64,000 nt of DNA from assembly GCA_902618795.1 (NCBI GenBank), contig CACNCF010000001.1, positions 1 through 64,000 of the forward strand, read 5' to 3'. Both the position numbers and the translations under genes were made by a program. A model generated the notes under the pieces. It saw nothing but the letters and a program-made list of their open reading frames with translations. It ran no database searches and was not told where the DNA came from. This DNA is from an uncultured Prochlorococcus sp. (lineage in GTDB: Bacteria; Cyanobacteriota; Cyanobacteriia; PCC-6307; Cyanobiaceae). This document shows positions 56,572 through 64,000 of this stretch, piece by piece (position 1 is the stretch's first letter; the number at the start of each line of letters is the position of its first letter).

Positions 56572-56973
56572 TTAATAAACATAGCAGAGGACTTCGCCGC
56601 CAATGCCTTGCTTTCTAGCATCGCGATCACTCATAACGCCTTTAGAAGTTGATATTATGGCAACTCCAAGACCTCCAAGAACTTTTGGTAAACCTCTAGT
56701 ATTTTTATAAATTCTCAACCCAGGTTTACTAACTCTTTGCATAGATCGGATAGTAGGAAATTTGTTTTTACCACTATATTTGAGACCGAGTATTATTTGT
56801 GATTTATAACCTTCACCTTCCTCATTAATATCAGAAATGAATCCCTCTTTTTGAAGCACTTTGGCGATACTTAAGGACATTTTTGAACCTGGGATTGTTG
56901 TGGTTGTATGCTTTTTTTGACTCGCATTTCTAATTCGAGTGAGCATATCTGAAATAGGATCGTGATTTGACAT
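56572..56973 (-). CDS. rpsH: 30S ribosomal protein S8
   Basis: Central-domain 16S rRNA-binding protein; in E. coli also the translational repressor of the spc operon. The 133 residues show [18 protein letters not shown] and the C-terminal [31 protein letters not shown]. The rpsN (S14) gene, which lies between rplE and rpsH in many bacteria, is absent here; the rplE-rpsH spacer is only 9 nt. Confidence 0.97.
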
Positions 56974-61908: not shown

Positions 61909-62537
61909 GATGCATAAACCTCCTGAATTTTATCTATCGCTGATTGACCTATTACCAATTTATTGGCATTGAGAATATCAAATACATTTAATTGATCGGC
62001 GGCGATTAATTTTACTTTCTCAATATTATTAATAGATTTTTTTATAATATCGGAAGGGCTATCAAGAATAACCAAAACTTTTTCAGTTTTTTGAATACCT
62101 AATCGAGCAAGGCCATTGATGATATCACTTGTTTTAGGCTGCTTTAAAGTAGATCCAAAATCTTCAACAGCCTTCATATCAGATACTCTGGACATAAGAG
62201 CTGTTCTAAGAGCTAATCTACGTTCCTTACGATTCATATCAAGATTGTAAGAACGTGGCTTCGGCCCAAAAATAATTCCGCCACCAGGCCTTAAGGGTGT
62301 CCTTATTGATCCTTGACGAGCTCTTCCTGTACCTTTTTGTTTGTATGGCTTTCTACCGCCCCCGCGCACTTCAGATCTTGTCAAAGTTGATGCTGTCCCT
62401 TGTCTTTTATTTGCTAGCTGTCTCAGGACTGCTCTATGGATTAAATCTGCCGAAGAAGTTTCTTTAGCAACTGCTAAATCAAGAGTAACTTTGCCTGATT
62501 TTTTACCATCCCATTTTAAAGTTTCAAGTGTTGTCAT
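61905..62537 (-). CDS. rplD: 50S ribosomal protein L4
   Basis: Assembly protein with an extended loop into the exit tunnel; in E. coli also the repressor of the S10 operon. The 210 residues include [35 protein letters not shown] (in part) and the [20 protein letters not shown] loop end. It overlaps rplC and rplW by 4 nt on each side, so coupling is expected. A candidate attenuator upstream of the operon is described separately. Confidence 0.97.
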
Positions 62538-63187
62538 GATTTTTCACCTCCTTTTTTGCCTACAACATTATTTGGCTTAATGTTGACAATTGAGCCGGGC
62601 TTACCGGGAACAGAACCCTTTACTACAAGCAAATTCTTCTGATCATCAATTTTTAGAACTAACAATCCTTTGGTAGTTATCTGTTTTCCTCCATATCTTC
62701 CTGCCATTCTTTTCCCTGGATAAATTCTACCCGGAGTTGTTCCTGCTCCTGTAGATCCTGGTGCTCTATGATTTTTTGAACCATGACTCATAGGACCTCT
62801 GCTAAAACCATGTCTTTTCTGGTAACCTGCAAAACCTCTACCCATAGATTTGCCACTGATATCAACTTTTTGACCAACCTCAAAGTTTTTTACAGTTATT
62901 TGTTTTCCGATTTCATAAGATGAAGTTTCTTCAACCCTATATTCTTTCAGATGCTTTAAAAGTTCTTCACCTGATTTCAATAAGTGTCCCCTTTCAGGTT
63001 TGCTTAAATGCTTCTCTTTGGACAAGCCATAACCTATCTGAACGGCGGTGTAACCATCCAAAGCAGTTGTTTTCAATTGAGTGACGCGGCAAGGACCAGC
63101 CTCTATAAGAGTAACAGGTACCGAATTACCTTTATCATCGAAAAGTTGGGACATGCCCAATTTCTTTCCTAAAATTCCGATAGACAT
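62534..63187 (-). CDS. rplC: 50S ribosomal protein L3
   Basis: First gene of the S10-spc-alpha supercluster in this genome (rpsJ is elsewhere). The 217 residues have [20 protein letters not shown] and the [28 protein letters not shown] loop at the peptidyl-transferase centre. The ATG is at 63185-63187; a 278-nt spacer to ndhN holds the promoter and a strong hairpin. rplD overlaps its stop by 4 nt. Confidence 0.97.
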
Positions 63188-63348
63188 AAGACTAAATTAG
63201 GCTAGCTCGTAATAATTTTTCAATTATCTAAACCCTTTAGTTATTAAGGTGAAGTTAATAAAAAAACAATTAATAAGGTCGAGACTTATCTGTAATAATA
63301 GATAGTTTCTCTTGGGATAAACCCACCTGAGTTTTTTAACGAAACGCT

Positions 63349-63401
63349 AAAAAATGTGAAATTTTCAGAGGCTCGGCTAGCTTGCGAGCTTAAAATTTCA
63401 C
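63349..63401 (-). terminator. Terminator-like hairpin upstream of rplC (candidate attenuator or end of a short RNA)
   Basis: On the minus strand, arms 63401-63392/63365-63356 form 10 bp (GTGAAATTTT type) and inner arms 63391-63385/63375-63369 add 7 bp with one G-U; the only break is a 3-nt bulge at 63366-63368. The loop is 9 nt. It is followed after one A by six T (63354-63349). It lies 162 nt before the rplC ATG. No T-run follows in the other direction. Confidence 0.7.
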
Positions 63402-63406
63402 TGAGT

Positions 63407-63416
63407 TACAATTGTA
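63407..63416. promoter_or_regulatory. Palindromic TACAATTGTA, possible two-way -10 element
   Basis: The 10-nt perfect palindrome contains TACAAT on each strand, a 5 of 6 match to the -10 consensus. On plus it would give a start near 63419 and an ndhN leader of about 47 nt; on minus a start near 63404, just ahead of the hairpin at 63401. No -35 box is evident. Inference. Confidence 0.4.
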
Positions 63417-63430
63417 CATCATCAAGTACC

Positions 63431-63455
63431 ATAAAATAAAATAAAATAAAATAAA
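63431..63455 (+). repeat. Microsatellite ATAAA x5 in the ndhN leader
   Basis: Five perfect tandem ATAAA units end directly before the likely ribosome-binding site (GGAAA) of ndhN. The repeat could vary in copy number and alter spacing between promoter and start codon. Confidence 0.85.
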
Positions 63456-63465
63456 GGAAATTTTT

Positions 63466-63942
63466 ATGCCATTACTTCTCTCAGGGAAAAAGTTTCATAA
63501 CGATTTAAAAACTAACAAATGTCTCGCAATATTTGCTCCTCTAGAAGGTGGTTATGAAACTCGTCTTTTGAGGAGAATGAGGGCCAAAGGCTTTAAAACT
63601 TTTATAACTTCAGCAAGAGGACTTGGAGATCCAGAAGTTTTCTTGCTCAAATTGCATGGCGTTAGACCACCTCACCTTGGTCATCAAAGTGTAGGAAGAA
63701 ACGGAGCGCTTGGGGAAGTTCAACAAGTAATCCCACAAGCTTCTGAGTTATTTAATGAAAATGATAAAAATAAATTACTTTGGTTATTAGAAGGTCAAGT
63801 ATTATCTCAATCTGAATTAGAGAGCTTAATAGAGATTTGCACTAACGATAATAAACTAACAATAGTTGTTGAAATGGGAGGTTCAAGAAAACTTGAATGG
63901 AAACCATTAAGCAATTATATTTTGGATGAATTTGAAAGTTAA
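63466..63942 (+). CDS. ndhN: NAD(P)H-quinone oxidoreductase subunit N (NdhN)
   Basis: Oxygenic-photosynthesis-specific subunit of the thylakoid NDH-1 complex (cyclic electron flow, respiration). The 158 residues begin [23 protein letters not shown] and contain [29 protein letters not shown] and [15 protein letters not shown]. No membrane segment is visible, as expected of a peripheral subunit. It has a near-consensus ribosome-binding site and stands divergent from the ribosomal supercluster. A probable ldpA start follows 5 nt after the stop. Confidence 0.96.
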
Positions 63943-63947
63943 ATTGT

Positions 63948-64000
63948 TTGATTAAAACCAAGAATAAAAAAGATAAATGGATTAAGTTAATTTGTGGTGC
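63948..64000 (+). CDS. ldpA: Probable LdpA (light-dependent period protein), partial N-terminus
   Basis: From a TTG at 63948 an open frame runs to the window end: LIKTKNKKDKWIKLICGA. KLICGA resembles the start of LdpA, an iron-sulfur protein affecting redox input to the cyanobacterial circadian clock; ndhN-ldpA neighbourhood is remembered from Prochlorococcus. Only 17 codons are visible, so the identity is tentative. The start is TTG with no clear ribosome-binding site. Confidence 0.45.
   Translation, partial: MIKTKNKKDKWIKLICG

Follow-up and report, generated by a model that had tools for sequence, protein, structure and literature searches.

Results

Gene organisation at the rplC-ndhN locus

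The window (the whole 64-kb stretch of DNA analysed) carries an S10-spc-alpha ribosomal-protein cluster, of which rplC is the first gene and rplD (L4) the second, and ndhN starts divergently from rplC at 63466 on the plus strand. The features considered here are as follows, and of the cluster genes those for L3 and L4, not the one for S8, lie nearest to the leader.

62534-63187, minus strand: rplC (L3), first gene of the cluster, start at 63187 (PF00297, 1.3e-10)
56572-56973, minus strand: rpsH (S8), same cluster, encoding the proposed repressor (PF00410, 4e-48)
63411-63416, minus strand: TACAAT, likely -10 box of the rplC promoter
63188-63404, minus strand: predicted 5' leader RNA of rplC, about 217 nt (match of covariance model R1, 63419-63279)
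63356-63401, minus strand: hairpin P1, the hairpin of the original prediction, with loop hexamer GCUAGC at 63376-63381 (covariation of homologous P1)
63332-63354, minus strand: hairpin P2, whose 5' arm is the T6 run (covariation of homologous helix 5; fold of the window)
63314-63324, minus strand: small hairpin P4, GGGUUUAUCCC (homologous helix 6 covaries in other genera; hairpin in the window fold)
63281-63311, minus strand: hairpin P5, candidate mimic of the S8 site, with GAAACU at 63309-63304 and AAGUC at 63287-63283 (sequence tests and fold)
63201-63206, minus strand: GCUAGC, 13 nt 5' of the rplC AUG, which could pair at long range with the complementary P1 loop

Related loci were collected at several distances. 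The close set (n = 80) consists of the window and 79 of 80 loci, L057 being dropped as its contig is without the rplC end; NdhN of the window is 97-100% identical to that of the 80 loci. More distant sets comprise 20 members of the same genus (L112-L131), 40 genomes that belong to other genera within the family (L132-L171) and 20 more distant leaders (L211-L230). Judging by the appearance of the leaders, we take the genus of the window (the 80 close sequences and L112-L131) to be HL, L132-L171 to be LL/Synechococcus and L211-L230 to be Cyanobium-like. An 81-base query matches 203 of 266 genomes of the genus, and 81 of the 87 that are at least 90% complete. rplC and ndhN are divergent neighbours in 60/60 loci of L112-L131 and L132-L171. 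Outside the family, 11 of 16 cyanobacteria (L231-L246) also have the two genes side by side and oppositely oriented, which makes this gene pair an old one.

A leftward promoter at the palindrome

The palindrome TACAATTGTA, the stem and the T-run lie exactly where the original prediction had placed them (63407-63416, 63356-63401 and 63349-63354). That prediction held that the palindrome offers a -10-like TACAAT to both strands. A 10-nt palindrome arises in 465 of 1000 dinucleotide shuffles of the spacer, and its presence is at chance level, ordinary for an AT-rich spacer. Within the genus, leftward TACAAT is kept in all 80 close sequences and in 17 of the 20 more distant ones (97/100), whereas the full palindrome is kept in 71/80 and only 5/20, respectively (76/100 overall), and the two-way promoter was rejected on this difference outside the closest relatives. 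The leftward half of the proposal held up. In the LL/Synechococcus leaders TGTAnnnT is aligned with TACAAT at the same spacing of about 40 nt from the P1 loop, as expected of a -10 box, and TGTAnnnT or GGTAnnnT occupies this position in 13 of 20 Cyanobium-like leaders. Leftward TACAAT is thus likely to be the -10 box of rplC, and transcription is predicted from it to start at about 63404.

Directly 5' of this box, TACTTGATGATGTA (63415-63428) is almost invariant among the leaders of the genus. It was considered as a shared promoter motif and rejected, with a single exact copy in its own genome and 22 places with at most two mismatches versus 15 for a reversed control, which does not point to a regulon; perhaps the sequence acts at this promoter alone, as a promoter element or a protein site. 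Further upstream, in the 5' region of ndhN (plus strand), tandem AAAAT-type repeats at 63430-63455 are largely retained in the 80 close sequences and altered in L112-L120.

Hairpin P1, the T6 run and hairpin P2

The 17-bp hairpin with one 3-nt bulge, as originally described, is a property of the plus strand (63356-63401, -17.4 kcal/mol), whereas the leftward RNA (-14.5 kcal/mol) has 10 + 5 pairs, a single closing pair and an internal loop of 2 x 5. The folding z-score is -2.6 for the leftward 67-mer and -3.1 for the same element on the plus strand. A perfect 10-bp stem occurs in 48 of 1000 dinucleotide shuffles of the spacer, and the perfect outer stem is private to the window, T63396 being A in 79/79 other close sequences. 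The homologous P1 (helices 1-4) covaries across the 40 leaders of other genera, and its loop hexamer is nearly invariant across leaders.

The T6 run, read on the minus strand, forms the 5' arm of P2, which is UUUUUUAGCG UUU CGUUAAAAAA in the window and has counterparts such as GAUUCGGCG AUU GCGCCGGAUC in other genera, where 7 of 9 pairs of the homologous helix 5 are changed on both sides. Counted in the stretch 20-55 nt past the start of the P1 loop hexamer, at least five T residues follow P1 in 96 of 100 leaders of the genus, 3 of 40 LL/Synechococcus leaders and 1 of 20 Cyanobium-like leaders. The run is rare outside the genus, and termination at this point, as originally proposed, is therefore not conserved as a function; a terminator scan did not flag the hairpin and T6, and some termination there may still occur in HL strains.

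These data also bear on a second proposal, a constitutive RNA of about 55 nt from about 63404 to the T6 run. A -10 box, a stem and T6 do stand in the right order, with the T-run present in nearly all leaders of the genus, but the conserved structure continues beyond the T residues towards rplC and the run itself is rare elsewhere. In addition, the searched text and tables of the study listing the ncRNAs of MED4 (PMC2518516) name no rplC, ndhN or ribosomal protein. Such an RNA is highly improbable.

The spacer encodes a conserved structured leader

In an alignment of the 5' half of the 40 LL/Synechococcus leaders (A1), both sides have changed in 24 of the 35 predicted pairs, and 95.2% of cells are paired. 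This level of pairing and covariation was reached by 0/500 shuffles, and slid controls were 27-43% paired. The HL alignment (A2) predicts the same kinds of stem with double changes in 4 of 29 pairs, a low number owing to the closeness of the HL sequences.

A covariance model, R1, was built from A1 only, the genus of the window being excluded from training. Its sole match in the 64-kb window is at 63419-63279 (60.3 bits, E 5.2e-12). Across 150 genomes of the order, R1 gives one match in each of 149, every listed genome coming from one family; the single genome missed (G027) was matched by DNA search. On 16 loci outside the family, R1 gave one weak match (E 0.52), to its P5 part, and under strict filters it matched 13 of 194 genomes of the phylum, all 13 in the family. 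With matches nearly confined to the family, the P1-P2 domains look family-specific. No match to Rfam 15 at the gathering threshold was obtained for 62500-64000 of the window, nine family loci and 16 other cyanobacteria.

In the leftward direction the rplC-ndhN spacer encodes a conserved, structured leader for the S10-spc-alpha cluster, and this larger leader begins with the palindrome, hairpin and T6. Leaders L132-L171 carry a second GCTAGC and an AGCUGAU/AUCAGC helix 3' of P5, and the leader of the window is without both.

Hairpin P5 across cyanobacteria

In the window the P5 core sits about 120 nt 5' of the rplC start codon, and P5 folds into eight pairs with probabilities of 0.64-0.98, with helices on both sides of an internal loop (helices 7 and 8 in A1). 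From the start of GAWACU to the AUG there are 116-131 nt in leaders of the genus and 148-302 nt in those of other family members.

In 16 regions upstream of rplC outside the family, R1 was not matched as a whole and P5 was visible by eye. A strict test was devised from these first 16 genomes after inspection, requiring GA(A/U)ACU, AGUC, at least two outer pairs and at least four inner pairs. It is passed by 15/16 of these photosynthetic cyanobacteria and by 13/15 fetched later, the latter being the fair figure given how the test was devised. The resulting 28/31 genomes come from a sample spanning 16 families, to which the second set adds just three new ones. The three failures (L236, L289 and L293) all pass a lenient test, and L236 by eye has the P5 core with a longer loop. 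Outside the class, 0/45 members of the phylum pass the strict test (44 with the full 700 nt searched and one with 100), and 57 of 6200 Markov-resampled upstream regions do so. The photosystem reaction-centre family PF00124 is found in 31/31 of the non-family cyanobacteria versus 0/45 of the phylum members outside the class, so that in this sample P5 goes with photosynthetic cyanobacteria.

Outside the family the inner P5 stem varies and pairing is kept; its fourth pair (n = 31) is CG in 11, GC in six, UA in five, AU in two and UG in two. The lenient test, which picks the best site per leader, finds GA(A/U)ACU and paired NAGUC in 191/191 leaders. P5 is the only part of the leader found to be common to several families. 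The motif is short, and the stem test is also passed at two further sites in the window, which lie inside coding regions.

P5 resembles the S8-binding core of 16S rRNA

The S8-binding core of 16S rRNA helix 21 comprises the G597-C643 pair with base 641, the invariant A642 and the triple A595-(A596-U644) (PMC4176348). In E. coli 16S rRNA the corresponding letters are AAGTC (595-599) and GATACT (639-644), and cyanobacterial 16S rRNA has AAGTC and GAAACT in 18/18 loci, including the genome of the window (23 genomes searched, four without a 16S match and one with a partial one). The known S8 operator in the E. coli spc operon, at rplE, has GAAACUG near the start codon and CAAGUC later, and its triple is A+80-(A+81-U+11) (PMC4176348). 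P5 shares the strand order of this operator, which is opposite in 16S rRNA.

Equivalents of A642 and of G597-C643, placed in an asymmetric internal loop, are present in P5 in all 191 leaders of the lenient test and in the 28 of 31 genomes that pass the strict one. For the A595-(A596-U644) triple, here known from the letters alone, AAGUC is found in 176 of 191 leaders and in the window, the 595 equivalent being C or U in the other 15. One further correspondence failed: base 641 of the leader, which is A or U, does not track the host 16S rRNA. The S8 protein encoded in the window is 57% identical to that of E. coli and retains the RIYK tyrosine and the STSKG stretch, and the tyrosine and an STS stretch are among the RNA contacts of S8 (PMC4176348). 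The spc-type S8 operator is placed at the rplE initiation region; P5 instead precedes rplC, and no P5-type site was found at rplE within the window. P5 is best read as a mimic of the S8-binding core of helix 21.

The original prediction had pointed to L4, by analogy with the leader attenuation of the E. coli S10 operon, with termination at the hairpin and T6. rplD is the second gene of the cluster, and Axmann et al. (2005, PMC1242208) took a homologous leader to be the counterpart of the S10 r-operon in E. coli. A conserved intrinsic terminator with its U-run is, however, not what the leaders contain, since the T-run is mostly missing in other genera and its T residues form a P2 arm. The letters GAWACU and AAGUC are absent from the 250 nt 5' of E. 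coli rpsJ, so that leader does not have the conserved core, and the most widely shared part of the leader is an S8-type site. Letter searches of E. coli 23S rRNA left GCTAGC, CTAGCCG and AAGTCC unmatched and yielded nothing convincing for 23S mimicry. Taken together, L4 is very unlikely to be the regulator.

The leader might also serve another ligand, such as L3 or another ribosomal protein, or none, as an element of mRNA stability or RNase E action, in which case the S8-like core would be convergent. In favour of such a role, P1 and P2, which contain no S8-site letters, show strong conservation in the family, and mRNA can be stabilised by 5' structures. Against it stand the P5 core letters, present in every leader under the lenient test and mostly with the full AAGUC, and the position of P5 as the sole part found in common across families. 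We regard this alternative as very unlikely.

Proposed regulation by S8

We propose, with a probability of roughly 0.8, that the element is an S8 autoregulatory leader, in which free S8 would bind P5 and lower the expression of its own cluster. The leader would be transcribed leftward from TACAAT (63416-63411) and fold into P1, P2, P4 and P5. When free S8 exceeds new 16S rRNA, it would bind P5, and the output of the S8-encoding S10-spc-alpha cluster would fall. P5 lies more than 100 nt from the AUG in the family, which makes direct blocking of the ribosome, as at E. coli rplE, unlikely and calls for a relay.

The most likely route would be translational: under repression, the GCUAGC loop of P1 would sequester the GCU(A/G)GC that precedes the AUG. 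Six pairs between the P1-loop hexamer and GCU(A/G)GC, 12-16 nt 5' of the AUG, are kept in 158 of 160 leaders, and L122 is changed on both sides of this pairing; the automatic assignment picks a wrong hexamer for L227, where GUCAGC is seen by eye and pairing is kept. Rows with six pairs number 149/156 versus a shuffle mean of 146.9, the hexamers being too invariant for covariation. A coupling of P5 occupancy to this pairing is a conjecture. In the folds of L132-L171, a GGCCAG 5' of P4 could rival the P1 loop for the pre-AUG GCUGGC. Alternatively, S8 binding might destabilise the transcript, which is how S8 controls the upstream spc genes in E. coli (PMC10931766).

Discussion

The original observation at this locus is partly confirmed and its interpretation partly supported: a structured leader is present and ribosomal-protein feedback on the S10-spc-alpha cluster is its likely theme, with S8 rather than L4 as the probable ligand. 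The claim that no such element had been described does not stand as worded, given that a 'rplCD operon leader' (cluster 5) was predicted in SS120, MIT9313 and WH8102 and tied by location to the enterobacterial S10 r-operon, as a prediction only (Axmann et al. 2005, PMC1242208). That leader is structured and lies at the same locus in relatives; the cluster has no MED4 member, and the portion of the article available makes no S8 match. No report of an S8 site in this leader was found in a literature search that covered main texts, few of them from subscription journals. S8 as the ligand, the form of the leader in this clade and the phylum-wide P5 core appear new.

S8 operators are a known kind of element; the one proposed here heads its cluster and forms part of a larger leader. 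In E. coli, S8 represses the spc operon through an h21-like site in the mRNA (PMC10931766, PMC4176348), and P5 resembles that operator in the order of GAAACU and AAGUC on the strand, in the encoding of S8 within the regulated cluster and in its mimicry of rRNA. Unlike the E. coli operator, which lies within the cluster over the rplE start, P5 precedes rplC in the leader, ahead of the entire cluster, is accompanied by the extra domains P1, P2 and P4 and has no overlap with a start codon. The E. coli S10 leader, subject to L4 attenuation, likewise precedes an S10/L3 cluster and mediates ribosomal-protein feedback, but the core letters are not common to the two and no conserved U-run is found here. 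An L4 leader candidate of Archaeoglobi (PMC7247131) also lies upstream of rplC/rplD; unlike the present leader it is archaeal, and the string 'cyanobacteri' is missing from the main text of that report.

A wider form of the proposal can be offered tentatively, namely that one S8 operator heads a fused S10-spc-alpha transcript and sets the output of the whole cluster across photosynthetic cyanobacteria, and that in the Prochlorococcus/Synechococcus family occupancy of P5 switches the capture of the pre-AUG sequence by the P1 loop. Long transcripts of this kind have been described, with a ribosomal-protein transcript of 31 ORFs in S. elongatus (PMC3219970), presumably the S10-spc-alpha cluster, and an 18-gene transcript corresponding to S10 and spc in Synechocystis 6714 (PMC5386190).

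According to a 2024 review, phylogenetic studies of S8-type control have not advanced (PMC10931766). P5 provides a precise phylum-wide candidate, a single hairpin with a handful of changeable letters, and S8 is proposed as the ligand of a leader whose prediction dates from 2005, in very abundant ocean phototrophs that reportedly have few regulatory proteins (PMC2518516). The same rRNA mimic as in E. coli would here stand at another point of the operon.
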